Below, piece by piece: positions 11,128 to 34,527 of a stretch of DNA of 64,000 nucleotides. The DNA is taken from positions 1 to 64,000 of the forward strand of contig JACQDL010000005.1 in NCBI GenBank assembly GCA_016201065.1, read 5' to 3'. The DNA is from Actinomycetota bacterium. GTDB lineage: Bacteria; Actinomycetota; Actinomycetes; Mycobacteriales; JACQDL01. The stretch's first letter is position 1. Each line of letters starts with the position of its first letter. Position numbers and translations under genes: made by a program. The notes under the pieces were generated by a model, which did not search any database, was not told where the DNA came from, and saw only the letters and a program-made list of their open reading frames with translations.

Positions 11128-13620
11128 CTATGCCGGTAGGACGACGTTGACCAGCTTCGGGGCCCGGACGATCACCTTGCTCGGCTCGGCGCCGCCGAGC
11201 AGTCCGGCGATGGTGTCCGTGCCCAGCGCCCGGTCGCGCAGGTCGTCCGCGCCGATCGAGGTAGGCACCTCGATCCGGCCACGCACCTTGCCATTGACCT
11301 GGATGACGCAGACGACGGTGTCCTCCGCCAGTAGGGCCGGCTCGGCCCGCGGCCACGGCGCCCTGCTCACCGTGTCCCCGGTCTCGACGGCGTGGCCGAG
11401 CTTGGACCAGCACTCCTCCGCGCAGTACGGGGCGAACAGGCTGAGCATGATCGCCAGTATCGTCGCGCCCTCGCGCACGGCCGGGTCGGCCGCACCCGGG
11501 CCCTGGTCAACCGCCTTGCGCAGCGCGTTGGTCAGCTCCATCAGGCGGGCGATCGCCACGTTGAACCGGTGGGTTTCCACCAGCTGGGTCGCCTCGTGCA
11601 CGGTCCGCGCGGTGACCCGCCGGACCTCCGTGTCGCCTTCCCCCCGGGTGGTCTCGGCGGCGCCGACCTCGCTGGCCAGCCGCCAGACCCGGGCGAGGAA
11701 CTTGCCCGACCCAGCCGGTGAGACGTCCGCCCAGTCGATGTCCTCGTCCGGCGGCCCTGCGAAGATCATGGTCAGCCGGACGGCATCAACCCCGTACTTG
11801 CGCAGTTCCTCGCCCAGGTCAACCAGGTTGCCCTTGGACTTGGACATGGATGCGCCGTTGAGGATCACCTGGCCCTGGTTGAGCAGCGCCTTGAACGGCT
11901 CGGTGAACTCGATCAGGCCCATGTCGTAGAGGGCCTTGGTGAAGAACCGGCTGTAGAGCAGATGCAGGATGGCGTGCTCGGCGCCACCGATGTACTGGTC
12001 GACCGGCATCCACTTGCGCAGTTCCGCCGGATCGAAGGGCCGCTGGTCGTCGTATGGCGAGACGAACCGCAGGTAGTACCAGGACGAGTCGACGAAGGTG
12101 TCCATCGTGTCGGTGTCACGATGCGCGTCGGCGCCACAGCGGGGGCACGCCACGTTGATCCATTCGGCAACCGACGCCAGCGGGGAGACGCCCTTGGGCC
12201 GCAGGTCCGCCCCGCTCAGCTCGGGTAGCCGGACCGGCAGCTGGTCCTCCGGGACCGGCACCTCGCCGCAGGTGGGACAGTGCACGATCGGAATCGGGCA
12301 ACCCCAGAACCGCTGCCGGGACAGCAACCAGTCGCGCAACCGGTAGCTGACCGTCGCGGCCCCGACCCCCCGTTCGGCCAGGATGTCGACGATCCGGCGG
12401 ATCGCATCGCCCTTGGTCAACCCGTCGATCGGCCCGGAGTTGACCAGGGTCCCCTCACCGGGGGTGGCCACCCCGGTCTGCGCGGGGTCGGGTGCCCCGG
12501 TGTCGACGACGACCCGCACCGGCAGGTCGAACTGGCGGGCGAAGTCCAGGTCCCGCTGGTCATGGGCCGGCACCGCCATGATCGCACCGGTGCCGTAGTC
12601 GGCCAGCACGTAGTCCGACGCCCACACCGGTATGCGCTCACCGTTGACCGGGTTGACCGCGTACCGACCCAGGAACACGCCGGTCTTGTCCCGGTCGGTC
12701 GACTGGCGCTCGATGTCCGACAGCCGCGCGACCTGCTCCAGGTACCCGGCCAGTTCCGCCCTTCGCTCGGGCGCGCACAGCTCATCGGCCAGCGCGGAGT
12801 CCGCCGCGACGACCATGAACGTCGCGCCGTACAGCGTGTCCGGCCGGCTGGTGAACACGGTGACCGGCTCCGTGCGGCCCTCGACGGCGAAGCTGACCCT
12901 GGCGCCCTCCGAGCGACCGATCCAGTTGCGCTGCATGGTCAGCACACGCTCGGGCCAGTGCCCTTCCAGCGCCGTCATGTCGTCCAGCAGCCGCTGCGCA
13001 TACTCGGTGATCTTGAAGTACCACTGGGTCAGGGACCGCTTGGTGACCGCGGTGCCGCACCGTTCGCAGCGTCCGCCGACCACCTGCTCGTTGGCCAGCA
13101 CGGTCTGGTCCTGCGGGCACCAGTTGACCGCACTTTCCTTCCGATAGGCCAGACCGCGTTCGAACATGCGCAGGAACAGCCATTGCGTCCACCGGTAGTA
13201 CCCCGGGTCCGAGGTGTGTAGGCGCATACTCCAGTCGAACGAGATGGCGTACCGCTTGAACGACTCCGCCTGCGTTTCTATATTCGCGTAAGTCCATTTT
13301 GCCGGATCGAGATCGCGTTTGATCGCAGCGTTCTCGGCGGGCAGGCCGAAGGAGTCCCATCCGACCGGGTGCAGCACTGCGTAGCCGCGCAGGACGTGGT
13401 ATCTGGCCACCACGTCACCGATGGCGAAGGCCTCGGCGTGCCCCATGTGCAGGTCACCGGACGGGTAGGCGAACATGTCCAGGACATACTTGCGCGGCCG
13501 GTCCGCCGGATACTCGCTGGCCCGAAACTGGTCAAGCTTCTCCCAGACCGGCAACCACCGGTCCTGGGCCGTGTGCCAGTCGTAGCGATCCCCGCCGCTC
13601 GGGGTTGACGTATCGCTCAT
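11128..13620 (-). CDS. leuS: leucyl-tRNA synthetase, shorter bacterial type
   Basis: This 830-residue enzyme charges tRNA-Leu. It has the HIGH motif as HMGH (58-61), the zinc-type CPQDQ...CERCGT region, the CP1 editing domain with TSRPDTLYG and the conserved Asp in [12 protein letters not shown], and the second class-I motif as SMSKSKGN (from about 591). I chose the ATG at 13620 (MSDTSTP) because GGACGGG precedes it; an upstream extension is Arg-rich. The housekeeping LeuRS of streptomycetes and micromonosporas, as I remember them, is about 950 residues with long insertions, so this may be a second copy. It has no translation-related neighbours here. Confidence 0.9.
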
Positions 13621-20635: not shown

Positions 20636-21631
20636 CTAGCGACTGTGGTCGACCGGTGGAGGCAGCGATGGGGGACCCGACCGCGCGACCGCCGCCACTT
20701 CGGTCGCACAGCCCCAGGAGAGGGTGACGCCCGCGCCGCCATGTCCGTAGTTGTGGATCACCCGGGCACCGTTGACAGTCTGCTGCGCGACGCGGACCCG
20801 GGGACGGGTGGGTCGTAGGCCAACCCGGTGGTCGATGACGGGGGCGTCGCGGAGGCGTGGCTCGATGCCGGCGCATCGGGCCACGATGGCGGCGGCTGTC
20901 GCGGGATCGGGTTTGCGGCTCCAGGCCCCGGGTTGGGCGGTACCGCCCAGGATCACGGTGTCGCCGTGGGGGCAGTAGTGCAGCAGGTCGGGCGAGAGAC
21001 CCGTGTCCTCGGAGAAGTGCTCGGTGATGCCGGGGTTCGCGACCACGACGAGCTGTCCTCGGACGGGTGTGAGATCGACGTCGTGAACGAGGTCGCGGGA
21101 GCCCATGCCGGTGCAGTTGACCACGATTGGCGCTACGCCGGTCGCCTCGTTGATGGAGTTGACGCGCCGGATCTCGATATGGCCGCCTGCCTCGGTGAAC
21201 CGCCGTTCGAGGTAGCCCAGGTAGGTCGGCATGTCGACGACGGGCGCGGTGAACCGCCAGCCGGTGGTGAACCCGTCCGGCAGCTCGCTGGCCTCGCAGA
21301 TGCGGAACCCGTCGAGCTGGTGACCCCACTCGGGCGGTTCGGTCGGGGTGCGGGACGCCTCGACGCCTGAGACGAGCCGGACGCCGGTCGCCGGATCTTT
21401 GGCGAGCTGCTGCAGCACCTCCAGCGTCTCAGCGCTCCAGACGCGGACCCGGTCAACGGGCTCGACGCGGTACGGGCCCCACATCGCCCCGGCGGCAACC
21501 GAGGTGGTGGCCTGTGCGGGCTCGGCGGTCCAGATCCGTACCCGCATACCCAGCTCGGCGAGGCAGATCGCGGTGGTCAGGCCCGTGACGCCGGCACCGA
21601 CGATCAGCGTGTCGAGACTGGTGCGGTCCAC
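20636..21631 (-). CDS. FAD-dependent D-amino-acid oxidase
   Basis: This 331-residue flavoprotein has the dinucleotide motif LIVGAGVTGLTTAICLAE at the N-terminus, the DAAO segments AGAMWGPYR and NCTGMGSRDL, and a C-terminal HNYGHGGAGVTLSWGCA close to the family signature. I chose the GTG at 21631, which lies inside the 3' end of the regulator gene (28-nt overlap). The usual reaction oxidises D-amino acids to 2-oxo acids with H2O2. It is on the opposite side of the regulator from the biosynthetic operon and may supply or remove an amino-acid intermediate. Confidence 0.85.
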   Translation of the reverse strand: MDRTSLDTLIVGAGVTGLTTAICLAELGMRVRIWTAEPAQATTSVAAGAMWGPYRVEPVDRVRVWSAETLEVLQQLAKDPATGVRLVSGVEASRTPTEPPEWGHQLDGFRICEASELPDGFTTGWRFTAPVVDMPTYLGYLERRFTEAGGHIEIRRVNSINEATGVAPIVVNCTGMGSRDLVHDVDLTPVRGQLVVVANPGITEHFSEDTGLSPDLLHYCPHGDTVILGGTAQPGAWSRKPDPATAAAIVARCAGIEPRLRDAPVIDHRVGLRPTRPRVRVAQQTVNGARVIHNYGHGGAGVTLSWGCATEVAAVARSGPPSLPPPVDHSR

Positions 21632-23076
21632 GGCTTCGACCGTAGCTGTCGCGTCGGCTGTCGGGCCAGTGCGGTCTCCAGTTCGGGGAGGAGATCGGCC
21701 ACAGCCTGGTTGCGTTTGCGGCGCCGCATCTCCCCGGCGAGGGTGCTCAGAAGCGCGACGCTGCGGGGTGAACGGACCTGGTCGAGCCGCGGCAGGGCCA
21801 TCCGGACGGCGGCGCAGGCGTCGTCGAGCTTGCCGTGGGCGGTGTAGCCGAGGGCGAGCCATGCGCCCTCGTAGAGCGCGCGCCGCTGGTAGGGCTCGTT
21901 GGGGTGACGGGCGTAGGCACCGGTGCGGAGCAGCGCCTCGCCCTTGCGGAGAAGCGCCCGCCCATCGGTGGCTGCGCCGTTCGCGACCGTCTGGCGGCCG
22001 GCGAGGATCATGGCGTATCCGGCTTGGCAGTCGAGATGGTTGTCAGTGAGGTAGTACATCCAGGCGGGATCACGGTCGGGTTGCCGGACGGCGAGGCGCT
22101 CGCGGGCCCGCGACCAGGCGCGCTCGCAGTCATCGACCCTACCGGCGGCGGCATTGGCGTAGGCGAGTCGGGACAGCACGGATGCCTGGACGCTTGGGGT
22201 GGACCGGTCAGCGGTGCGCCATGCGGCGGCGCCGAGGGTCAGGCCGTCGGCAGTGTCACCGAGGGAGGCGGCCTGGAAGGCCAGATCGGCGAGGATGTGC
22301 GCTTCCATCGCACGGTAGCCGGCATCGCGGGCAGCGCGTAGTCCGGTGAAGAAGTACCGCTGGGCCAAGCCTTGCTGGTCGGCGTCGAACGCCTTCCAAC
22401 CGGCCAGTTGGGTGAGGTCGGCGAGGGCAACCAGCAGCCGGCGGGTGGTGGCGTCGGTGTTGCCGCCCTCACGTAGGACCAGCAGCACGGCGCGGACCTG
22501 GGCGCCGACGTAGCTGAGACCGGCGGCACCGCCGCGTTCGTCGTCAAGCAGCTGGAGGCGCGGGATGCTGGCCTCGATCTGGTCGACCAGCGGATCGTCG
22601 GCTGACGCGGCGGCGGACATTCCGCCGCTGGCGTGGTCCTGGGCGCCGAGGTAGGCGCTGACGGCATGGATGAGCGTGGCGCCGGATACCGAGAGGAAGA
22701 TTCGGCGATCCACGAGCCCCCCTAGCAGCCAGTCCTCGGCGATGAGCATGGTGGTGTGGAGGTTCCATGGCCCGTCCATGCCGGCGCTGGCTGGCAGGAC
22801 CAGTGTCGCCTCGACCGTGCCTGTCAGCCCGGGCCAGAGGTCCGTGACGGTGATCACACGGCCAATGTGCCTGGAGATCGTGTATGCGGTGAGGGCAGGC
22901 AACGGCGTACGGGGGACGCCTCCGGCGTCGCGCCAGTAGTAGGGCGCGGTCTCGGCGAGGGTGCCTGGTCCGAACAGCCGGTTCATCTCCCGGGCGAGGG
23001 TTCGGGGGGTGAGTCCCGCTTCGACCAGGTGGGCGGTAAGGGTGTGGTTGGACCGGTCTGTTGTGGCCACTGCCAT
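21604..23076 (-). CDS. large cytoplasmic regulator with N-terminal HTH and TPR-like C-terminus
   Basis: This 490-residue protein begins with a helix-turn-helix-like segment (LTAHLVEAGLTPRTLAREMN, then PYYWRDAGGVPR) and continues in an Ala/Leu-rich helical repeat region (about 190-480) typical of TPR-containing actinobacterial regulators. I chose the ATG at 23076 because GGGAGGAGCGA lies just upstream. It is divergent from the radical SAM operon across 195 nt and overlaps the D-amino-acid oxidase gene, so it is the likely pathway-specific regulator of both. The signal it reads is unknown. Confidence 0.75.
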   Translation of the reverse strand: MAVATTDRSNHTLTAHLVEAGLTPRTLAREMNRLFGPGTLAETAPYYWRDAGGVPRTPLPALTAYTISRHIGRVITVTDLWPGLTGTVEATLVLPASAGMDGPWNLHTTMLIAEDWLLGGLVDRRIFLSVSGATLIHAVSAYLGAQDHASGGMSAAASADDPLVDQIEASIPRLQLLDDERGGAAGLSYVGAQVRAVLLVLREGGNTDATTRRLLVALADLTQLAGWKAFDADQQGLAQRYFFTGLRAARDAGYRAMEAHILADLAFQAASLGDTADGLTLGAAAWRTADRSTPSVQASVLSRLAYANAAAGRVDDCERAWSRARERLAVRQPDRDPAWMYYLTDNHLDCQAGYAMILAGRQTVANGAATDGRALLRKGEALLRTGAYARHPNEPYQRRALYEGAWLALGYTAHGKLDDACAAVRMALPRLDQVRSPRSVALLSTLAGEMRRRKRNQAVADLLPELETALARQPTRQLRSKPWTAPVSTR

Positions 23077-23271
23077 TCGCTCCTCCCACCGGGTTGACCG
23101 CAGGTACCGAGAAGGTAACGGCTCGTAGTAGTCGATGCGAGCCGACATTGACGCATTTGACGGATCCGCCCCCTCCCCTGCGCGGGTGCTTCGCGGTGTG
23201 CTGGAGACCCCCGCCGGCGTACCGCCGATGGCTGCGCCGGTGGGCGGTCCGACAAAGGGTGGAGGCGGGAG

Positions 23272-24225
23272 ATGCATACCTCAACGACGGCACAGGCGAG
23301 CGTCCCGTGGGAGTGGGAGTTTGACTGGCACCTGACGAACCGGTGCGACTTCTTCTGCGAGTACTGCCACCCGCAGATCCGGTACGTGCTCAACCGCGGG
23401 CGCCTCGACGAACCCGCTCCAGAGCTTGTCGTGCAACGCTTCGACGAGCTGGACCGGGTATGCCTGGTGCACATGTCAGGCGGCGAGCCGTTCCTGTTCC
23501 CCGCCTTCGTCGAGCTGTGCGAGGGCCTGACCAGCCGGCACTTCATCAGCATCAACACCAACCTCGCCTCCGACGACGTGGCGGCGTTCGCCGCGCGGGT
23601 ACCCGCCGAGCGGGTCACCAAGATCGTCGCAGCGATCCACCAGTCGGAGCGGCAGATGCGGGGACTGTCGCTGGGCGCCTACGCCCGCAACTACGCCGCA
23701 CTGCGCCACGGCGGCTTCGACGTGACCGCACTGTATGTCCTGTACCCACCGCTGCTCGCCGGCCTAGCCGACGACTTGGACCGGCTGCGGTCGCTGGGGG
23801 TCGACCACATCCGCGCGAAGGTGTTCAAGGGCGTGTACCAGGGTGTGCGTTACCCGGAGGGTTACACCGCTGACCAGAAGATGATCGTGCTGGCCAACTC
23901 CGGCGAGTACGCGTTCAACCGCCCCTACCTCGACGGAATGCTGTCCTTCCGTGGCCAGGCATGCACCGCCGGAGTGACCTCGTTCAAGGTGACCGTCACC
24001 GGTGACGTACGCCGTTGCGCGTCAGTGCCATCCGGCTACGGCAACCTCTACGACGGCACGTTCCGGCCCCGACAGGGCAACGAGCCCTGCCCGGCGAAGC
24101 GAGTTCTGGTCCTGTCGCAGTGCCTGTCGTACCTCGTCGATCCGCCGGTCCACCCCGAGCTGGGCGTCGAGCCGAACGACTTGTCGTCGTCCCACGAAGG
24201 CCATTCCCGAAAGGCGCTCTCATGA
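23272..24225 (+). CDS. radical SAM enzyme with C-terminal Cys-rich region
   Basis: This 317-residue enzyme has the CxxxCxxC cluster motif with Cys25, Cys29 and Cys32 (NRCDFFCEYC), SGGEP at 69-73 for SAM binding, and four further Cys at 231, 249, 273 and 284 that could hold an auxiliary Fe-S cluster as in twitch/SPASM proteins. GGAGGCGGGAG precedes the ATG. It is the first gene of a seven-gene operon and overlaps the next gene by 4 nt. It should generate a 5'-deoxyadenosyl radical; the substrate is unknown. The next gene encodes a SAM-making enzyme, which would feed it. Confidence 0.87.
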   Translation: MHTSTTAQASVPWEWEFDWHLTNRCDFFCEYCHPQIRYVLNRGRLDEPAPELVVQRFDELDRVCLVHMSGGEPFLFPAFVELCEGLTSRHFISINTNLASDDVAAFAARVPAERVTKIVAAIHQSERQMRGLSLGAYARNYAALRHGGFDVTALYVLYPPLLAGLADDLDRLRSLGVDHIRAKVFKGVYQGVRYPEGYTADQKMIVLANSGEYAFNRPYLDGMLSFRGQACTAGVTSFKVTVTGDVRRCASVPSGYGNLYDGTFRPRQGNEPCPAKRVLVLSQCLSYLVDPPVHPELGVEPNDLSSSHEGHSRKALS

Positions 24226-25472
24226 GGATCGCGGTTCACCGCGCCTGCGTCGACCCGGACCGACTGCCATTCGACGCCGCCGAACGGAAGGGCATCGGAC
24301 ACCCTGACAGCCTCGCCGACCTGGTCGCTGACACGTTCTCCCACCGGTACTCGACCTGGAGTCGCCACCGGTTCGGAGCCATCCCCAACCACTGGGTGGA
24401 CAAAGTTACCCTGGTCGGCGCTGCGGCCGAGGTGACCTTCGGCGGTTTCGACATCCACAAGCCAGTCGACTGCTACCTCTTCGGCAAGATCACCGACCGG
24501 GTCGGGTCGACACCGGTACCTGTCGAGGAAATCTTCGGTGAGGTCATCGCCAACGTGCTGCCGACGGCGTTGGGCGACGGCCGCATCCTCGACCACGTCC
24601 GGCTGCACGTCAACAACACCTCCGGCATCGCGGTCGACCACGACGCCCGGTTCTACCGGCCCCAAGCGGCCGAGGATGTCGCGACCGTGCTCGCGGTTGA
24701 GTCGGTCGCCAACGACACGGTCCTCTGCACCGGCGCTGGCCGCCGAGGATTCGCCGCCGACCTCGCCGTGGGCCTGGAACGCTGGATCACCGGCGCGGAG
24801 TTCCAGCGCATGACGCCGGCGGTGGGCACCGACGTGAAGATCATGGTGGTGCGGGTCGGGTCAGTCGTGGACGTGACGGCCGCCGTGCCGTTCCACCCGG
24901 AGGTCGTCGGCTCGTGGAAGGCGTACCGGGGTTGTCTCGCCGACGTGCGGGTGGCGATCTCCGCCGAGCTGAAGTCACTGCTCGATCAGGATCCGAGGGC
25001 CCGCGATGTCACCGGCCTGTCGTTGTCGCTGAACACCAAGGACACTCCTGGCCGGGGCTACCTCGCCCCGTTCGGTACGTCCCTGGGCAAGGGCGACTGT
25101 GGCGCGGTAGGGCGCGGCAACCGCTACAGCGGTGCCATCGAGCCACTGAGACCGGCGAGTTGCGAGGCGCCAGCGGGCAAGAACCCGGTCCACCATGCGG
25201 GGAAGATCTACACCGCCGTCGCGGCCGAGGCGGCACGGCTGATTCTGGTCGAGACGTCGGTCTACGCGGAGGTGACCATCGCCGCTCGCAACGGTGGCCA
25301 GCTCGGCGACCCGGCGCACGTCCTGGTGTCACTGGAGCGGGATGTCGACACCGCGACGATGACGGCGGTCGAGCAGATCGTGCGCGGCTGTGTCGCGGGT
25401 GCGGCCGACTACTCCAACCGTTTCCTGGCGACCGATCCGCTCACCCTGTTCCGTGAAGGAGCCCATCCGTGA
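24222..25472 (+). CDS. archaeal-type methionine adenosyltransferase
   Basis: This 416-residue protein matches the archaeal AdoMet synthetase family (PF01941), not bacterial MetK. I see AERKGIGHPDSLADLVAD near the N-terminus, HWVDKVTLVGAAAEVTFGG, ANDTVLCTGAG, PAVGTDVKIMVVRVG, and the C-terminal GAVGRGNRYSG and EAPAGKNPVHHAGKIY blocks. The family makes SAM from methionine and ATP. The ATG overlaps the radical SAM stop (ATGA) and its stop overlaps the methyltransferase GTG. A cluster-borne SAM synthetase beside a radical SAM enzyme and two methyltransferases would secure SAM supply, or could make a SAM analogue. Activity is inferred from motifs. Confidence 0.85.
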   Translation: MRIAVHRACVDPDRLPFDAAERKGIGHPDSLADLVADTFSHRYSTWSRHRFGAIPNHWVDKVTLVGAAAEVTFGGFDIHKPVDCYLFGKITDRVGSTPVPVEEIFGEVIANVLPTALGDGRILDHVRLHVNNTSGIAVDHDARFYRPQAAEDVATVLAVESVANDTVLCTGAGRRGFAADLAVGLERWITGAEFQRMTPAVGTDVKIMVVRVGSVVDVTAAVPFHPEVVGSWKAYRGCLADVRVAISAELKSLLDQDPRARDVTGLSLSLNTKDTPGRGYLAPFGTSLGKGDCGAVGRGNRYSGAIEPLRPASCEAPAGKNPVHHAGKIYTAVAAEAARLILVETSVYAEVTIAARNGGQLGDPAHVLVSLERDVDTATMTAVEQIVRGCVAGAADYSNRFLATDPLTLFREGAHP

Positions 25473-26125
25473 CGAATGCGGTCCTTCCCGAGACACACCG
25501 CCGGCACCTGGCGACGCTTCGGGGCATGCCTGCGGTCCTCGACGCCGAGGGGCTGCGCATCGGCCACGAGTTCGTGATGTTCTTCGCCGAGGCGGAGCTG
25601 ATGCACGGACACGCCACCCGGCTCACCGAGGGCATCGCCCGGCCGGACGTGCTGGAGGTCGGCCTTGGCCTGGCCGTGTTCGCCGAGCAGCTCAGACCCC
25701 ATCGTGTCGGGTCGTACACCGCGGTCGAACCGCACCCCGGCGTCGCCCGGCTGGCCCGCCAACGGGTGCTTGACACCTTCGATCCACCCCCGGTGGTACT
25801 CACCGAGCCGTGGCAGCTCCTGACGTTCCCCATCGGCGCCTACGACGTGATCATGTACGACACCTGGCCACCGGACGGCCACGCCGACAGGGACTTCGCC
25901 ACCTTTGTCGCGCACGTGGCCATCCCGTGCCTACGACCGGGCGGCCGGTTCAGCTTCTTCCACAGCGGCGACACGGTCAACGCAGCCCGCCAGCAGGTCC
26001 TCGACCAGTACTTCGCCGGGTGGGCCGTCCATCCGTACACCATGCCGGCCGCGCTCATGCCGCCGCACTGGACGAAACCGACCCGCGACTTCCTGATCCC
26101 GATCGCCACGAAAGGGAGCGCCTGA
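25469..26125 (+). CDS. class-I SAM-dependent methyltransferase
   Basis: This 218-residue protein has a Rossmann SAM site (DVLEVGLGLAVFAEQL, about 60-76), an acidic second strand (YTAVEPHPGV) and MYDTWPPDG, where the methyl acceptor site usually lies. The pattern VLEVGLGL with AVEPH resembles guanidinoacetate/arginine N-methyltransferases, which would suggest a guanidine or amine acceptor, but I would not name one. It overlaps the methionine adenosyltransferase gene by 4 nt and is followed after 1 nt by the oxygenase gene. Confidence 0.78.
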   Translation: MTNAVLPETHRRHLATLRGMPAVLDAEGLRIGHEFVMFFAEAELMHGHATRLTEGIARPDVLEVGLGLAVFAEQLRPHRVGSYTAVEPHPGVARLARQRVLDTFDPPPVVLTEPWQLLTFPIGAYDVIMYDTWPPDGHADRDFATFVAHVAIPCLRPGGRFSFFHSGDTVNAARQQVLDQYFAGWAVHPYTMPAALMPPHWTKPTRDFLIPIATKGSA

Positions 26126-26126
26126 C

Positions 26127-26885
26127 ATGCCATCGCCTTTCACGTCGCCCATCCCGGCCCACCGGCGGGAACATTTCGCCACCGACGGGTTTCTCGTCCT
26201 ACCCGACCTCGTGGCACCCGGCACCGTTGAGGCGCTACGTGCCGATGCCGATGCCGTGCTGGTACGCCGGCTGTCCGAGATGGCCGTGACGCGGACCCTG
26301 GACCCGCGGGTGACGTGGTGGCGTCTGCCGTCTGGCCGCCCGTACGTACTGAAGATCAAGCCGGTGGTCGATCTCGCGCCCACCGCAGCGGCGGTCGCCT
26401 ACGGGGAGGTGCTGAGCACGCTGGCGGCCGACCTGCTGGGCGCACGGCCCCGGCTGATGGAGGACAAGTTCATATACAAGCAGGTGGTCGACGTCACCGG
26501 TGGTTGGGCGGAGTTGCCGGTCCTCGGCGAAGAAGTGCGCAAGCACACCGACGCCGTCTACTTCCACGCCCGTGGATACCAGCGGGTCCTCACCGTCGCG
26601 GTGTGCCTGGACTCCTGTACCGAGCAGGCCGGCGCTATTCGGGTCTGGCCGAGAAGCCACCAGCGCGCCGTCGAGATGATCGCCACCGACTGCCAGGGCC
26701 CGGTCGTGCCGGACACCCGAGCCCCCGACGCTGAGGCTGTCACCCTGGTAACGGAACCCGGCACGGTGCTGCTTTGGGACGCGGCGCTGGTGCACGGCAG
26801 TGGCCCCAACGTCTCCGGCAACCCGCGCCGGCTGCTGGTCCTGGGCTACGCCCCGACCGGCCCGGACAGCGGTGAGCCGCAGTGA
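26127..26885 (+). CDS. PhyH-type Fe(II)/2-oxoglutarate oxygenase
   Basis: This 252-residue oxygenase has the family start REHFATDGFLVLPDLV, the iron ligands His140 and Asp142 in KHTDAVYF, distal His223 in LVHGSGPN, and Arg234/235 for the 2-oxoglutarate carboxylate. All catalytic residues are present. Such enzymes hydroxylate or desaturate small molecules, including carrier-free amino acids and peptides. It is in the middle of the coupled operon: 1 nt after the methyltransferase and overlapping the SDR gene (GTGA). Confidence 0.85.
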   Translation: MPSPFTSPIPAHRREHFATDGFLVLPDLVAPGTVEALRADADAVLVRRLSEMAVTRTLDPRVTWWRLPSGRPYVLKIKPVVDLAPTAAAVAYGEVLSTLAADLLGARPRLMEDKFIYKQVVDVTGGWAELPVLGEEVRKHTDAVYFHARGYQRVLTVAVCLDSCTEQAGAIRVWPRSHQRAVEMIATDCQGPVVPDTRAPDAEAVTLVTEPGTVLLWDAALVHGSGPNVSGNPRRLLVLGYAPTGPDSGEPQ

Positions 26886-27865
26886 AGATCCTCATGCTCG
26901 GCGGAACCCGCTTCGTCGGTCGCCACATCGTGTCCGAGTGCCTGGCCCGCGGTGACGACGTGACCGTGCTGTACCGGGGCCGCTCGCCCTCGCCGTTCGC
27001 CGGGCTCGCCCGGCACGTCCGTACCGACCGGCGTGCTCCCACCGACGAAGCCAGAGTCGTGCTCGCCGAGCCGTGGGATGCGGTGATCGACACTAGCGCC
27101 ACCGATGTCGACGACCTCCACCCGGTCCTGCCCACGCTCGGTGAGCTTGGCGGGTACGTACTGGTGTCGACGTGCGGGGTGTACCGCCGTGCCACCGGTG
27201 GTGCCGTGCTGACCGAGCGATCGCCGACCATCGTGGCCGACGCATCGCATCCCGCGAGGGCGTCGGCCACCCGCAAACTGCGCTGCGAGCGATATCTGCG
27301 CCGCCGCCTCGACCGGATCGGGGTGCCACCGCTGATCGCCCGACTCGGTCTGGTCATCGGCCAGTACGACGACAGTGACCGCCTCGCGTACTGGCTGGAC
27401 CGCGCCCTGCGCGGTGGTGAGGTATTGGTCCCGATGGATCCCGAGCAGCCGATCCAGCTCGTTGACGCCACCGACGTGGCCCGCTTCCTTCGACACGCGG
27501 TCGACGAACATCTGTCCGGCGTAGTAAACGTGGTCGGGCCGCGCACCACCGCGCGGGACCTGCTCGACACGGTCCTGACCCACGACGGACGACCGACCAC
27601 GCTGTGCTGGGTAGGCGAGGACTTCGCCCTGGCCAACGGAGTGCGACCCTGGACCGAGGTCCCGCTGTGGCTGCCCACGACCAGCCCCGAGCGGTCACTG
27701 ATGTCGGTGGGGAGCACCCGCACCGAGACCACCGCCCTGGCCCACCGGCCGCTCGACGAAACCATCACCGACTGCCTCGCCTGGCAGGAGCTGCGCCGTG
27801 GCTGGTCACAGCGCTGGCTGGACCACACCCGCGAGCAGTACCTGCTGCACCAGTGGCAGGGCTGA
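26882..27865 (+). CDS. extended SDR (NAD-dependent epimerase-like) lacking the catalytic Tyr
   Basis: This 327-residue protein has an N-terminal Rossmann motif LGGTRFVGRHI (6-16) and the strand VLVSTCGVYRR. At the usual YxxxK site it reads S-A-T-R-K (128-132): Lys132 is kept but the Tyr is Ser. The remainder (RLGLVIGQYDDSDRLAYWLDR, IQLVDATDVARF) fits atypical extended SDRs. The missing Tyr could mean a non-redox or binding role, or another residue in its place. It is the fifth gene of the operon, with 6 nt to the FkbM gene. Confidence 0.75.
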   Translation: MKILMLGGTRFVGRHIVSECLARGDDVTVLYRGRSPSPFAGLARHVRTDRRAPTDEARVVLAEPWDAVIDTSATDVDDLHPVLPTLGELGGYVLVSTCGVYRRATGGAVLTERSPTIVADASHPARASATRKLRCERYLRRRLDRIGVPPLIARLGLVIGQYDDSDRLAYWLDRALRGGEVLVPMDPEQPIQLVDATDVARFLRHAVDEHLSGVVNVVGPRTTARDLLDTVLTHDGRPTTLCWVGEDFALANGVRPWTEVPLWLPTTSPERSLMSVGSTRTETTALAHRPLDETITDCLAWQELRRGWSQRWLDHTREQYLLHQWQG

Positions 27866-27871
27866 GCCACT

Positions 27872-28495
27872 GTGCTGCCCTACACGCAACCGGAGCCGTT
27901 CCACTCCCAATGGGGCGAGGACCGCTGGCTCGTCGAGCATCTCAACGTCCCCCGGGCAGGAGTCTTCGTTGACGTCGGCGCTGGTGACGGCGTCCACGGC
28001 CGCAACACCCTGCACTTCGAGAACCTGGGCTGGAGCGGGCTGTGCGTGGACGCCGACCCTCGCAACCACAAACCCCTACGCCGACGCCGTTGCGCGGTGG
28101 ACACCCACGCCATCTCAACCACTCCAGGCCGGCGGCCGTTCGGCATGTATACCCACAAGCCGTCCTGGTCGGGACTACGCCGCGGGGGCACCGACTACCG
28201 GGCGATCCTCGTCGAATGCCGCCCGCTGGAAGCTCTCCTGGGCACGTGGCGCATCGACCGGATCGACCTGCTCAGCATCGACGTCGAAGGCACCGAACTC
28301 GACGTCTGGGACTCCTTCGACCACGCCCGCCACCAACCCTCCGTCGTGATCGTCGAGTTCGACGACCACCACCCAGGTCGGCACCGCCGTACCATCCAGC
28401 ACCACCTCGGCCACGATACGTACCGGTTGATCCACGAGACCCCGGCGAATCTGATCCTCCAACGGGCCGACCGGCCCTGGCGCCCACGCCGATGA
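27872..28495 (+). CDS. FkbM-family methyltransferase
   Basis: This 207-residue protein has the FkbM features: SQWGEDRWL near the start, FVDVGAGDGVHGRNTLHFE (32-50, SAM site), GWSGLCVDADPR and IDLLSIDVEGTELDVW. The family usually methylates hydroxyls or carboxylates of secondary metabolites and glycans. The GTG start follows the SDR by 6 nt and the stop overlaps the ATP-grasp ATG. It is slightly shorter than usual members (about 230-280). Confidence 0.82.
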   Translation: MLPYTQPEPFHSQWGEDRWLVEHLNVPRAGVFVDVGAGDGVHGRNTLHFENLGWSGLCVDADPRNHKPLRRRRCAVDTHAISTTPGRRPFGMYTHKPSWSGLRRGGTDYRAILVECRPLEALLGTWRIDRIDLLSIDVEGTELDVWDSFDHARHQPSVVIVEFDDHHPGRHRRTIQHHLGHDTYRLIHETPANLILQRADRPWRPRR

Positions 28496-29871
28496 CACAG
28501 TCGATCACCGACCTGCTGCCCGGCGACAGGATCATCGTCGTCTGCGGCCGGGCCGATGACGCCCACGCCTGGCGCAGCCTGTTCGGTCCCGACCGGTGCC
28601 TGGCCGTCGCGCTCGACGAAGCGCCGCCCGAGAGGCGGGTCGCGCCCCTACGAGGCGCCTCCGACCATCTGGCGTGGCAGCACCGGGCCATTGCCGGGCT
28701 GGACGGCTCCGGCTGGCTCGCCCAGGCAGCGGATGCCTTCGACCCCGACCACACCGCCATGCTGGTGTTGCCCGACCCACTAGACCCAGCCCGGGTGGGT
28801 GACCGGCGCCAGATCGGGAGTCGGCACGCAGCCTGGCGGCACTTTGAGGACAAGACCGTGGTCGACACCCTCTGGGACGCCATCGGAGTACGCCGAACCC
28901 GATCCATCACCACGGACTACCTGCCCGACCTGGGCGCCCTGGGCATGTTGGTCGACGGCGGCAGCGGGGTCGTGTGCTCCTTCCAACCCGTCGGCGCGGG
29001 TCCGGCGGCGGGAGGCGACGGCATCTGGTGGTGGCGTCACGGCCAACCCCCAGCGGCTATGCCTACCGCCGGGCCAGGTGCCTGGCGGGTCCGGCTGATG
29101 CCTCTTCTGGAGGGGGTGCCGGTCCGCCTGCACGGCCTGGTGCTGACGCACCACGTCGTGGCGTTCCCGCCCATGGAGATCGTGACGCTGCCACGGCCGG
29201 ACCACGGCACACTCATGTACGCTGGCACCGTGCCGGCCCTCGGCCACCGTCCTGACCTGCTCGCGCAGACGAAGCACCTCGGCGCCGGGCTACGCGGTCA
29301 ACTCGGCTACCGTGGCGGGTTTTCCGTCGATGGCGTCCTTACCGTCGAGGGCTTCCGGCCCACCAACTTCAACGCGCGGCTCACCTCGGCCATGGAAGGA
29401 GCCCGCTCCGAGCTACGGGTAGTGCTGCACTCGGTCAACCTCTTGGCACGGGACGGGACAGACCTCAAGCCCACGGTTGTCGAACGCCTCGCGGAGCAGG
29501 TGTTCGACAACCGTGAGGAGTACACGCTGTACGGCGCGGCCACGTGTGTCGGTGCTGGAAAGCCCCGACACGTCGCGGTCCGCTGGGCGGGCCGCAGCCG
29601 GCTCGTCGTCGCCGACGGACCGCACGCCGACGGCCGACTGGAGGTGACCCCCTCCGTTCGGGGTTGGCTGCTGACCGCCACCCTGACCGTGGCCCGGCTT
29701 CCGCTGGGCCGTCCGGTCGGAAGGTTCGCGCCCGAGATCTTCCGGCTCAGCGACCGGATACTCGGGACCGCCTTCGGCAACCTCGCTTCCCCGTTCGGCA
29801 TCTGCACCACTCATGTGCCAGCGCCGCGAGTTGGCACGGATTCGGTCGAGGCGCGTGCCCGCCCCACGTAG
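28492..29871 (+). CDS. ATP-grasp-like ligase
   Basis: This 459-residue protein shows ATP-grasp features in order: an N-terminal pre-ATP region (about 1-110), AWRHFEDKTVVDTLWDAIGV where the first ATP Lys lies, a Gly-rich loop (GAGPAAGGDG), RLMPLLEGVPVRLHGLVL and the C-terminal GYRGGFSVDGVLTVEGF followed by NFNARL in place of the usual N-x-R Mg motif (E-x-N-P-R). The replaced Pro and Glu are unusual. The family forms amide, ester or thioester bonds with ATP and acyl-phosphate intermediates. It overlaps the FkbM gene and is the last of the operon, 5 nt from the convergent gltX stop. Confidence 0.72.
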   Translation: MTQSITDLLPGDRIIVVCGRADDAHAWRSLFGPDRCLAVALDEAPPERRVAPLRGASDHLAWQHRAIAGLDGSGWLAQAADAFDPDHTAMLVLPDPLDPARVGDRRQIGSRHAAWRHFEDKTVVDTLWDAIGVRRTRSITTDYLPDLGALGMLVDGGSGVVCSFQPVGAGPAAGGDGIWWWRHGQPPAAMPTAGPGAWRVRLMPLLEGVPVRLHGLVLTHHVVAFPPMEIVTLPRPDHGTLMYAGTVPALGHRPDLLAQTKHLGAGLRGQLGYRGGFSVDGVLTVEGFRPTNFNARLTSAMEGARSELRVVLHSVNLLARDGTDLKPTVVERLAEQVFDNREEYTLYGAATCVGAGKPRHVAVRWAGRSRLVVADGPHADGRLEVTPSVRGWLLTATLTVARLPLGRPVGRFAPEIFRLSDRILGTAFGNLASPFGICTTHVPAPRVGTDSVEARARPT

Positions 29872-29876
29872 CGCGG

Positions 29877-31280
29877 TCAGCTCATGCGGTCGAGGGCGGC
29901 CCGCAGGCGGGCCATGGTTCGCTCACGCCCGAGGATCTCGATCGACTCGAACAGCGGCAGCCCGACGGTGCGACCGGTGACCGCCACCCGCACCGGGGCC
30001 TGCACCTTGCCCAGCTTCAGCCCGCGCACGGCGCCGACCGCCTCCAGCGCCGCCTTCAACGGCTCGGCGCGCCACTCGACCGACCTGTACGCCTCCGCCA
30101 CCGCACCCAACAACCCGGAGGCGTCAGCGTTCATCGCCTTCTCCCACGCGGCGTCGTCAGCCGGCGGCTCGTCGAGGAACAGGAAGTCAACCATCGGCAC
30201 GACCTCCGACAGCACCGCCACACGCGTCTGCGCCAGCCCTGCGACTGCGGCGAAGACGCCCTCCTCGTACGCCTCAGGCCGCCACGGGGTGCTGTCGCCG
30301 TGAAGCCACGGCTTACACGCCTCGACAAACCCGTCAACCGACAGTGCCCGGATGTAGTGGCCGTTGAACGCACGCAGCTTCTTCACATCGAAGAACGTCG
30401 GAGACGGGTTGACATCCTCCAGCCGGAACTCGGCCACGATGGCATCCCACGGTACGATTTCTCGATCGCCTGAGGGCGCCCACCCGAGCAACATCAGGTA
30501 GTTGCGGATCGCCTCGGCCAAGTATCCGTCGGCGCGGAAATCCTCCAACGCCACCCGGTCCCGCCGCTTGGACAGCTTCTGCCGCTTCTCGTTGACCAGG
30601 ATCGGTGCGTGCACCCACACGGGAGGCTCGGCGCCGAGCGCCTCCCACAGCAACTGCTGCTTCGGCGCGTTGGACAGGTGCTCCTCCGCCCGAATCACGT
30701 GCGTGATGCCCATGACCATGTCGTCGACGACGTTGGCCAGCAGGAACACCGGCGACCCGTCGCTCCGCGCGATCACGAAGTCCTCGATCAGCGCGTTCTC
30801 GAACGCCGGCTTGCCTCGCACCAGGTCGACGACGACCGTCGTCCCCTCCTTCGGGGTACGGAACCGCACGGCCCGACCGTCCCCCCCGCCCAGTGCGCGA
30901 TCGCGGCAGAAGCCGTCATACCCCTTGTGCTCACTACCAGTACGGGCTATGACCTGGTCACGGGTGCATTCACAGTAGTAGGCAAGGCCGACGGTGAGCA
31001 GCCGGCTGATGGCGGCCCGGTGGTCTTGTACGTAGTCCGACTGAAACAGCGGCCCCTCGTACTCATCCGGTCCGATCCCCAACCAGGCCATCGCGTCGAG
31101 GATTCCCCGCACCCACTCAGGCCGGCTGCGCGCCGCGTCCGTGTCCTCAATCCGCAACACCAGCGTCCCGCCCGACTGCCGCGCCAGCACCCAATTGAAC
31201 AGAACGGAGCGGGCATTGCCGACATGGAACATCCCCGTCGGCGAGGGCGCGAAACGAACACGAAGCTCGGACTTGGTCAC
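29877..31280 (-). CDS. gltX: glutamyl-tRNA synthetase, HVGN type
   Basis: This 467-residue class-I enzyme has [16 protein letters not shown] (HIGH as HVGN, 19-22), [11 protein letters not shown], a zinc-type CEC...YDGFC region, and KLSKR (235-239). It makes Glu-tRNA. Actinomycete housekeeping GltX usually reads NPHVGLVRT with a longer insert, so this is a divergent type and may be an extra copy. It is convergent with the biosynthetic operon, 5 nt from its end. Glu-tRNA-using pathways sometimes carry their own gltX, but a housekeeping role is equally possible. Confidence 0.88.
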
Positions 31281-31424: not shown

Positions 31425-32720
31425 CTACCGGTCCCATCCGTCCCGCAACGCGTCGAGGTCGGTGGCGGCGGAGAGACCCGGTGCGGAGCCGATGAGCCCC
31501 TCCAGCGGCTGTCGCTGCTGCTCGCGCAGCCCCCATGGGGAGCCGTAGTCGCTGAGCAGCTCCAGGAACGGCACCGCGTCGAACGCCTCCGGGCCGAGCA
31601 CCCCGGTGCCCCGCCAGGTGCCGGCGGCCAGCAGCTCCAGCGCGACGACCGGGTTCACGGCCGTCTGCCAGGCCACCGCCTGGGTGCCGTACTCAGCCAT
31701 CGACCACTCGTTGTCGACGACGTGATACAGGTACGTCGAGCGCGGCGCACCATCGGTACCAGTGCCGCGCACCCAGGTGCCGGCGCAGGTCCGCCCGGTC
31801 ATCGCCGCGCCCAACGTCGCCGGGTCGGGCAGGCACGCGGCGACCACGTCCCGGGGCGAGACCTCCACCCCACCGACCCGCACCGGAACGGCCGAGTCCA
31901 GACCGAGCGCGTGCAGGGTCTTCAGCACCCCGATGAACTCCTCGCCCAGCCCGTACTTGAAGGTGACCCGCTCGGCCGCCACCCAGCGCGGGACCAGCAG
32001 CACCTCCTCGTGCTCGACGTTCACGCACTCCACCGGCCCGATGCCCGCGGGGAAGTCGAACACCTCCGGCTCGGAGAACGGCTCGGTGGTGTACCAGCCC
32101 CGGTCCCGCTGGTAGATCACCGGCGGGTTGAGGCACTCCTCGATCGTGGTCCAGATCGAGAACGTCGGGGCGAAGGCGTGCCCGGCCACCTCCAGGTTCG
32201 CACCGTCCCGCACCCCGATCTCGGCGATCTCGCTGAACAGGTGGTCGGCGGCGTACCGGGCGAAGACGTCGGACAGCCCCGGCTCGACCCCCATCCCCAC
32301 CAGCGCGAGCCGGCCCGCCGCCTGCCACTCCTCGGCCCGCGCGAACTGCAGGTCACCGAGCTTGACCCCGGTCAGCTCGTGGGGACGCTCCGGGTGCGGC
32401 GTGGACAGCGACATCGCCATGTCCAGGTAGTCGACCCCGGCCTCCAGCGCGGCACCGAACAGCGGCATCACGAACCGCGGGTCGGTGGCGTTGAGCAGCA
32501 CGTCGCACCGGTGCTCGCGGAGCAGCGCGGTGACCGCGGCGCGGTCCGCGGCGTCCACCCGCGCGGCGACGAACCGCCGGTCACCGGTCGCGGCGGCCAC
32601 CCGCTGCGCCCGGGCCAGGTCGTGGTCGGCGACGACCATGTGGTCGACGAAGTCACGCCGGACCGCGATCCCGGTGATCGCGGACCCCACGGCGCCGGCC
32701 CCCAGCAGGAGTACACGCAC
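31425..32720 (-). CDS. saccharopine-dehydrogenase-like oxidoreductase
   Basis: This 431-residue protein has an N-terminal NAD(P) motif LLLGAGAVGSAITG, LLNATDPRFVMPLFGAALEAGVDYLDMA, GMGVEPGLSDVFARYA and a C-terminal part with YHVVDNEWSMAEYGTQAVAWQT, as in saccharopine dehydrogenase (Lys-forming) and homospermidine-type synthases. I chose the GTG at 32720, preceded by GGGTGGAAGG. It is divergent from an amino-acid permease and sits in an amine-catabolic region, so it may oxidise or reduce a secondary amine between an amino acid and an oxo acid. The substrate is not proven. Confidence 0.8.
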   Translation of the reverse strand: MRVLLLGAGAVGSAITGIAVRRDFVDHMVVADHDLARAQRVAAATGDRRFVAARVDAADRAAVTALLREHRCDVLLNATDPRFVMPLFGAALEAGVDYLDMAMSLSTPHPERPHELTGVKLGDLQFARAEEWQAAGRLALVGMGVEPGLSDVFARYAADHLFSEIAEIGVRDGANLEVAGHAFAPTFSIWTTIEECLNPPVIYQRDRGWYTTEPFSEPEVFDFPAGIGPVECVNVEHEEVLLVPRWVAAERVTFKYGLGEEFIGVLKTLHALGLDSAVPVRVGGVEVSPRDVVAACLPDPATLGAAMTGRTCAGTWVRGTGTDGAPRSTYLYHVVDNEWSMAEYGTQAVAWQTAVNPVVALELLAAGTWRGTGVLGPEAFDAVPFLELLSDYGSPWGLREQQRQPLEGLIGSAPGLSAATDLDALRDGWDR

Positions 32721-32846
32721 CCTTCCACCCCCATCGCTTCGATGGAAATCGTTGCTCGCGAGCGAATTCTTCTCGGAATCACTTGTCCGTGGCAAGGAAA
32801 GCTGCGATAAACGCAACAGCCATCCGGCCGACGAGAGGAGCGGGTC

Positions 32847-34478
32847 ATGACCGCGTCTGCCACTGCCCCCGAACGCACGCCTGGCCACCCGGCCGGCGAG
32901 AAGGGTCTGAAGTCCGGGGCGCTGGGCCTGCTGTCCGGCATCGTGATCGGGGTTGCCTCCACGGCTCCCGCCTACAGCCTGGCCGCGACGCTGGCGCTCG
33001 TGGTCGGCGTCGTCGGACTGCAAGCACCATCGGTCGTGGTGCTCGCCTTCGTCCCGATGCTGTTCGTCGCGATCGGCTACCAGCAGCTGAACAAGGTCGA
33101 GCCGGACTGCGGCACGACGTTCACCTGGGCGACCAGGGCGTTCGGCCCGAAGATGGGCTGGCTGGGCGGCTGGGGAGTCGTCGCCGCCGACGTGCTGGTC
33201 ATGTCCAGCCTCGCCCAGGTCGCCGGCCAGTACTTCTTCCTGCTCTTCGACGCCAAGGGCATCGGTACCGACGCCACGAGCCCGTGGGTGCTGCTGGTCG
33301 GCGTGATCTGGATCGTGCTGATGACCTACATCTGCTTCCGCGGCATCGAGGTCTCGGCGAGGTTCCAGAAGGTGCTGCTGAGCATCGAGGTCGTCATGCT
33401 CGTCGTGCTCGCGGTGACGGCGCTGGTCAGGGTGTACGGCGGCGGCCCGCCGGCCGGCTCGGTCCACCCGTCGCTGTCGTGGTTCAACCCGCTCCACATC
33501 GGGTCGGTCACCGAGTTCGCGGGCGGCGTGCTGCTGATGCTGTTCATCTACTGGGGCTGGGACACCGCGGTCGCTGTCAACGAGGAGACCGCCAACCGGA
33601 CCCGCACCCCCGGCATCGCCGCGGTGGTCTCCACCGTGCTGCTGCTCGCGACGTACGTCGTGGTGACCGTTGCCGCGCTGTCCTTCGCCGGCATCGGGGA
33701 CAGCGGGATCGGCCTGAACAACCCGGAGCACTCGGCCGACGTGCTCTCCGTCCTCGGCAACGCGGTCTTCGGCGACTCCGGGATCGGCACCGTGCTGTCC
33801 CGGCTGCTGATCCTCATGGTGCTCAGCTCGGCGGCCGCCTCCACCCAGACCACCATCCTGCCGACCGCCCGGACCACCCTGTCGATGGCGGTCCACAAGG
33901 CGCTGCCGGCCGCGTTCGCCAGGATCCACCACCGCCACCTCACCCCGGCCACGTCGACCATCGCGATGGGCACGATCTCGGCCGTGCTGTACGCGGCGCT
34001 GAACTTCGTGTCCTCCGGCAACATCATCGGCGACTCGGTGTCCGCACTCGGCATGATGATCGCCTTCTACTACGACCTCACCGGGTTCGCCTGCGCCTGG
34101 TACTTCCGGCACCAGCTCGGCAACAGCCTCAAGGACCTGATGCTCAAGGGGGTCCTGCCGGCGCTCGGCGGCGTGATGCTGCTGCTCGCTCTCACCCGCA
34201 GCATCTACGACGACTGGGACCCGGTGAACTCCAACACCTCGTGGACCGTGCCGTTCCCGCCGCACTGGCAGGTCGGTGGCGTGTTCGTGCTCGGTGTGGG
34301 CACGGCCATCCTCGGCGTGGTGCTGATGTTCCTCTGGAAGGCGATGGCCCCGGGATTCTTCAACGGCGAGACCCTCACCAGGGGCACGCCGGTCCCGGTC
34401 CCGGTCACCTCCGACGGCCCGCCGGTCGGCGGGATCGCGACCAACCCACCAGCGGAGGCGGCCGGCGAGCCGGTCTGA
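32847..34478 (+). CDS. APC-family amino acid/polyamine permease
   Basis: This 543-residue integral membrane protein has about 12 predicted helices, an APC start (GIVIGVASTAPAYSLAATLA), PDCGTTFTWATRAFGPKMGWLGGWG and ETANRTRTPGIAA. The family imports amino acids, GABA or polyamines by H+ symport. Strong AGAGGAGCG precedes the ATG. It is divergent from the saccharopine-dehydrogenase-like gene and followed by a long hairpin, so it is transcribed alone. The neighbours suggest GABA, putrescine or a similar amine as cargo. Confidence 0.85.
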   Translation: MTASATAPERTPGHPAGEKGLKSGALGLLSGIVIGVASTAPAYSLAATLALVVGVVGLQAPSVVVLAFVPMLFVAIGYQQLNKVEPDCGTTFTWATRAFGPKMGWLGGWGVVAADVLVMSSLAQVAGQYFFLLFDAKGIGTDATSPWVLLVGVIWIVLMTYICFRGIEVSARFQKVLLSIEVVMLVVLAVTALVRVYGGGPPAGSVHPSLSWFNPLHIGSVTEFAGGVLLMLFIYWGWDTAVAVNEETANRTRTPGIAAVVSTVLLLATYVVVTVAALSFAGIGDSGIGLNNPEHSADVLSVLGNAVFGDSGIGTVLSRLLILMVLSSAAASTQTTILPTARTTLSMAVHKALPAAFARIHHRHLTPATSTIAMGTISAVLYAALNFVSSGNIIGDSVSALGMMIAFYYDLTGFACAWYFRHQLGNSLKDLMLKGVLPALGGVMLLLALTRSIYDDWDPVNSNTSWTVPFPPHWQVGGVFVLGVGTAILGVVLMFLWKAMAPGFFNGETLTRGTPVPVPVTSDGPPVGGIATNPPAEAAGEPV

Positions 34479-34483
34479 CCCGG

Positions 34484-34527
34484 CCCCTGGGCCAACCACC
34501 GCCCCTGGCCGGTGGTTGGCCCAGGGG
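34484..34527. terminator. long bidirectional terminator
   Basis: Arms 34484-34501 and 34510-34527 are an 18-bp perfect inverted repeat around an 8-nt loop, between the convergent permease and aldehyde dehydrogenase stops. Confidence 0.8.

Follow-up and report, generated by a model that had tools for sequence, protein, structure and literature searches.

Besides albomycin, which is considered below, immunity by duplication of the target aminoacyl-tRNA synthetase (aaRS) is known for mupirocin and borrelidin. We know of no case of natural-product self-resistance based on glutamyl-tRNA synthetase (GluRS), and a search of open-access texts found no literature on GluRS self-resistance or on clusters of the type described here. 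In the albomycin system, the nucleoside SB-217452 resembles seryl-adenylate, and immunity is given by SerRS2/AbmK, a second seryl-tRNA synthetase that is encoded with the biosynthetic cluster and is divergent from the housekeeping copy (PMC9032320). The locus studied here likewise carries a second, divergent aaRS. It differs from such systems in that the aaRS, whose part in resistance is a prediction, is GluRS, recruited several times, and in that a methionine adenosyltransferase (MAT)-type enzyme is present.

The MAT-type enzyme has its closest described counterparts in archaea. In the MAT of Pyrococcus furiosus (pfMAT), SAM is contacted by H59, N61, D141, L142 and D280 from one chain and by H30, D198 (also given as D168) and Y268 from the other chain (PMC8727953). 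Below we compare these enzymes with a MAT encoded in the window, that is, the whole analyzed stretch of 64,000 nucleotides. The gene belongs to a small cluster of natural-product genes at about 23.3-31.3 kb. The analysis suggests that this cluster makes an undescribed adenosine-based antibiotic against GluRS and carries its own immunity. We propose that a known fold and a known immunity logic are joined here in a new combination and directed to a new target.

The MAT gene and its operon

The cluster and the regulator-like gene at its head comprise the following features:
21604-23277, minus strand: divergent TPR/XRE-type regulator-like protein, divergently oriented at the operon head, start codon uncertain
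23272-24225, plus strand: radical SAM enzyme with CxxxCxxC and conserved C-terminal cysteines (PF04055, 42.7 bits)
24222-25472, plus strand: archaeal-family MAT with a remodelled methionine pocket, motif PNHWVDK (PF01941, 207 bits; structure matches; pfMAT residue mapping; clade support 100/100)
25469-26125, plus strand: class I methyltransferase similar to guanidinoacetate N-methyltransferase (GAMT structures, E 7e-11 with an 11-sequence profile and 2e-6 with the single sequence)
26127-26885, plus strand: Fe(II)/2-oxoglutarate dioxygenase of the PhyH family (PF05721, 88 bits)
26882-27865, plus strand: NAD-dependent epimerase/dehydratase-like protein, accessory (PF01370, 54.5 bits)
27872-28495, plus strand: FkbM-family methyltransferase (PF05050, 53.7 bits; TIGR01444 above cut-off)
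28492-29868, plus strand: divergent ATP-grasp ligase (PreAtp-grasp proteins matched by hhalign with a profile built from 13 sequences, 95.6% probability, E 1.2e-8)
29877-31280, minus strand: second GluRS, complete, HIGH motif HVGN, proposed immunity copy, convergent with the operon (TIGR00464, 399 bits vs cut-off 290)

The MAT open reading frame has an ATG start and encodes 416 aa. PF01941 is its only Pfam match (E 5.7e-61, 207 bits against a cut-off of 27, covering profile positions 19-380 of 395), and the Pfam search gave no match to PF00438, a domain of bacterial MetK. It also matches the NCBIfam equivalogs for archaeal MAT at 245 bits vs the cut-off of 481, and hence is a true yet divergent member of PF01941. 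The AlphaFold model (pLDDT 92.6) is nearest to the MATs of Pyrococcus, Sulfolobus and Methanocaldococcus (TM 0.84-0.85, E about 1e-35), with bacterial MetK far lower in the same search (E about 1e-13). The enzymes of P. furiosus (6s81), S. solfataricus (4k0b) and M. jannaschii (7p83) share with the window MAT the fold, the full-length domain, the ATP-side residues and the GRGN and GKNP motifs, whereas the identity in the structure alignment is just 27-28%. Thus the first-pass annotation, which had described an archaeal-type MAT in a bacterial operon and named PF01941 rather than bacterial MetK, is borne out. So is its placing of the gene between genes for a radical SAM enzyme and methyltransferases, on both sides of which it saw translational coupling: the upstream overlap is 4 nt (ATGA) and the downstream one also 4 nt (GTGA). 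The source genome (assembly of 3.65 Mb in 65 contigs, 97.8% complete) contains one PF01941 gene, that of the window, and one normal MetK (PF00438) on another contig, C22.

Key residues of the neighboring enzymes are conserved. Radical SAM cysteines C25, C29, C32, C231, C249, C273 and C284 are invariant in an 11-sequence alignment, and the profile of this protein is weakly similar to viperins and MoaA in PDB. The HxD...H motif and the arginine of the dioxygenase (H140, D142, H223, R234) are invariant in five aligned sequences. The ATP-grasp-like protein has no Pfam or NCBIfam family match and its structure prediction from five sequences reached pLDDT of 49.5; its assignment rests instead on the profile comparison, where the match covers the GYRGGFSVDGILT..N.R core. 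The regulator-like protein has no Pfam domain above the cut-off; its homologues in the nearest clusters (L174, L175, L177-L182) lie at the equivalent position and are 69-79% identical over 423-540 aa, and that of L195 is distant (26% identity). No dedicated transporter was found, which is a point against the reading proposed here. Just past the second GluRS lies a 1024-aa ORF (31425-34499, minus strand) whose C-terminal half resembles saccharopine dehydrogenase/carboxynorspermidine synthase; it is outside the cluster as bounded by relatives.

Substitutions in the methionine pocket

The residues known to contact SAM were mapped onto 13 members of the window MAT clade in alignment A9. Positions H59, N61, D141, L142 and D280 are occupied by N, W, D, H and D, respectively, and H30, D198 and Y268 (pfMAT numbering) are kept. 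In addition, E277, A278 and D281 are replaced by G, K and C. The check for loss of catalytic residues thus gave a divided result: the ATP/catalytic side (H30, D198, Y268, D280) is conserved in the window MAT and throughout its clade, and part of the methionine side (H59, N61, L142) is changed clade-wide, the sides being assigned from the E. coli equivalents given in PMC8727953 and not from a ligand-bound model. H59 and N61 are kept in the archaeal and other bacterial rows of A9 and, outside the clade, in all but three sequences of a larger PF01941 alignment. These three (L042, L043, L062), from candidate phyla and an alphaproteobacterium, have R and M there and may represent another pocket variant. 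On the tree, the clade is actinobacterial and splits off with 100/100 support on a long branch of 1.45 changes per column.

Relatives were collected by a contig scan of genomes and by whole-protein searches. PNHWVDK was itself among the fetching patterns of the scan, and many of the named loci came that way; hence its invariance in these loci partly reflects how they were chosen. Searches with the whole protein, free of this bias, agree on PNHWVDK with the exception of L203, a basal divergent member with PNHSADK. L203 has no GluRS and, judging by eye, has carbamoyltransferase-type neighbors, so the link to GluRS described below is a property of the PNHWVDK group.

The first-pass annotation had offered two roles for the enzyme, dedicated SAM supply or synthesis of a SAM analogue for the neighboring enzymes. 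Ordinary SAM supply to the radical SAM enzyme and methyltransferases would agree with the presence of three SAM-using enzymes in the operon and with the retained ATP-side residues. We nevertheless consider this role unlikely, given that the genome has MetK, that SAM-contact residues are replaced on the methionine side (H59N, N61W, L142H), and that one of the two cluster types (type B, below) retains MAT and GluRS without any of the SAM-using genes of the other. Synthesis of a SAM analogue, or of some other adenosylated compound, agrees better with these observations. Judging by these substitutions, the enzyme probably acts on something other than methionine.

Two cluster types linked to GluRS

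The expanded set comprises 33 PNHWVDK loci (L174-L202 and L204-L207), some from genomes shared with the motif-pattern scan. All of them fall into two cluster types, 23 loci into type A and 10 into type B. In type A, to which the window cluster belongs along with those of Rhizocola, Micromonospora, Actinocorallia and others, the gene order is radical SAM, MAT, methyltransferase, PhyH, epimerase (optional), FkbM, ATP-grasp, with GluRS last. The order of the first three genes is common to every type A relative, whereas their exact overlap is not (the spacing between the radical SAM and MAT genes varies from -4 to +20 nt). The epimerase-like gene is present in L174, L175, L177-L182, L192 and L193 and absent from L176, L183-L191, L194, L195 and L197. 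Type B, found in Nocardiopsis, Streptomonospora, Actinorugispora and Murinocardiopsis, consists of MAT, an STM4013 hydrolase and a degenerate GluRS-like protein, again followed by GluRS. Since the two types have just MAT and GluRS in common, their products may differ.

A whole or partial GluRS gene is present in 32 of the 33 loci, the fetched stretch of the remaining one (L181) stopping short of its position. It is convergent with the operon everywhere except L194, where the direction is the same. No GluRS was seen within the stretches read around canonical-pocket actinobacterial MATs of the same families (L208-L213, L020-L026). We are therefore nearly certain that GluRS belongs to the cluster.

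Several further observations concern decayed or more distant loci. The GluRS-like protein of type B (L033-L038, about 12100-13550) retains neither the HIGH nor the KMSKS motif, for which reason it was dropped as a candidate second adenylating ligase. In L195 (G771) and L197 (G757) the MAT gene has an in-frame TGA or is split over two frames, due to decay or sequencing error, but the other type A genes are still there and so is the HVGN GluRS. No close relatives were found in viral contigs, and plasmid matches, all below 60% identity and in other contexts, were discarded. A third PF01941 context, seen in Streptomyces and also on linear plasmids (L148, L149, L022), has no aaRS; its gene order is glycosyltransferase, MAT, sugar isomerase, Gfo/Idh, carbamoyltransferase, NUDIX.

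The gene neighborhoods bear on the possibility of an anti-phage locus, chemical or of the abortive-infection kind, where, upon infection, the MAT product would stop GluRS, with the second copy as the antidote. Some type B loci (L035-L038) seem, by eye, to adjoin restriction-like or helicase/ATPase genes, and the radical SAM gene is weakly viperin-like. On the other hand, PADLOC applied to the cluster proteins yielded weak partial viperin and mad2 matches and no defence system, type A loci were not seen in islands of the restriction/helicase kind, and the five to six tailoring genes of type A are typical of metabolite biosynthesis. We regard a defence function as very improbable and return to an antibiotic cluster with immunity.

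One more group of actinobacterial loci is similar to the window in that an archaeal-family MAT adjoins a duplicated aaRS. In L023-L026, a PF01941 MAT lies next to a second seryl-tRNA synthetase (SerRS; L023:7614-10854 and equivalents). It is a second copy in all four genomes: the MAT-adjoining copies are 76-78% identical to that of L023, and the housekeeping ones just 38-41%. Unlike the window, these loci have the canonical HHN pocket, SerRS in place of GluRS, and other neighbors, namely a histidine phosphatase and, in some loci, an APH-like kinase and glycosyltransferases. This hints that aaRS inhibitors tied to MAT genes may be more widespread.

The second GluRS and the proposed product

The second GluRS, absent from the first-pass annotation, is the best clue to the purpose of the cluster. 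Exactly two GluRS genes were found in each of the 14 clade genomes searched, whereas among 55 further genomes of the class with a GluRS match just 4 have two (Fisher p 2e-11). In the source genome, the housekeeping copy, located on contig C52, is 67% identical to the cluster copy (GluRS2) and has HVGG at the HIGH motif. Comparison of 14 pairs of cluster and housekeeping proteins revealed one column in the whole protein that separates all of them, residue 22, which closes the ATP-binding HIGH motif. It is N in 13 cluster copies and S in one, and G in all 14 housekeeping copies; in a non-redundant set of 31 cluster copies, 29 have N and 2 have S. The change from G to N takes two base substitutions, given the codons AAC/AAT vs GGN. 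The catalytic motifs of GluRS2 (HVG, KLSKR) are intact.

A single clade of cluster copies was rejected (AU p=2.7e-10), and the cluster copy of genome G250 groups with the housekeeping GluRS of the same genome. Recruitment of GluRS therefore took place repeatedly, which is what target-duplication immunity predicts. On a 62-sequence GluRS tree built with the HIGH site masked, the cluster label requires at least six changes and the non-G state five. Clear independent acquisitions by cluster copies number two only, N in Nocardiopsidaceae and S in G250/G1020; the N of the Micromonospora-like and Actinocorallia-like copies may be of older date. In an independent-pairs sign test all three informative pairs agree, a number too small for significance. 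Moreover, N and S are not exclusive to clusters: the only GluRS found in L162 and L169 has HVGN in one and HVGS in the other, and hence these residues are tolerated in a normal GluRS. In L155 and L156, genomes without such a MAT cluster, an orphan HVGN GluRS exists beside an HVGG copy, which is what one expects of an immunity gene. In L154 and L157, a second GluRS of the HVGG type lies next to two radical SAM-like genes, in a cluster that looks unrelated.

GluRS2 could instead be biosynthetic, supplying Glu-tRNA(Glu) as an activated glutamate donor, with MAT still making the adenosyl unit. All its catalytic motifs and the anticodon domain are kept, and aminoacyl-tRNA-dependent peptide bond formation in other pathways provides a precedent. 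However, none of the cluster proteins was recognized as a tRNA-dependent transferase (PEARL/LanB, Fem, GNAT, cyclodipeptide synthase), and orphan HVGN copies exist without the cluster. Besides, the housekeeping GluRS could give Glu-tRNA, and separate recruitments with one ATP-site change would then be hard to explain. A donor role seems improbable to us; we favor GluRS2 as an immunity copy, with reasonable though not high confidence.

From the family and fold of MAT, the pocket substitutions, the linkage, the GluRS copy number and the HIGH-site difference we infer a substrate, product, target and immunity as follows. In MAT, a non-methionine nucleophile would attack ATP at C5', yielding a 5'-deoxyadenosyl building block. 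Tailoring of this adenosyl unit or its partner may then fall to the dioxygenase, the radical SAM enzyme and two methyltransferases, and the ATP-grasp ligase would add an amino acid, for which glutamate is the natural guess. The product would block the adenylate site of GluRS, perhaps by acting as a stable mimic of glutamyl-adenylate; this target is proposed by analogy with albomycin, and an adenosine-transferring enzyme in the cluster fits it. GluRS2, altered at the ATP-binding HIGH motif, would sustain translation in the producer, as SerRS2 does for albomycin. For the reading as a whole (non-methionine MAT, GluRS-inhibitor cluster, GluRS2 immunity) we see about even chances. That the product is a glutamyl-adenylate mimic is a more tentative suggestion, and slightly more tentative still is the full scheme in which a MAT-fold enzyme adenosylates a non-methionine nucleophile and thereby forms the warhead of a natural glutamyl-adenylate mimic, with target-duplication immunity by GluRS.

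If true, this would name the target for an undescribed cluster family of Micromonosporaceae, Nocardiopsidaceae, Thermomonosporaceae and the window's own lineage. GluRS would join the aminoacyl-tRNA synthetases that have an inhibitor of natural origin together with a resistant duplicate, and the SAM-synthetase fold would have gained a new biosynthetic role, the making of a product other than SAM. If the SerRS-linked branch is also real, aaRS inhibitors built by MAT would form a broader family.
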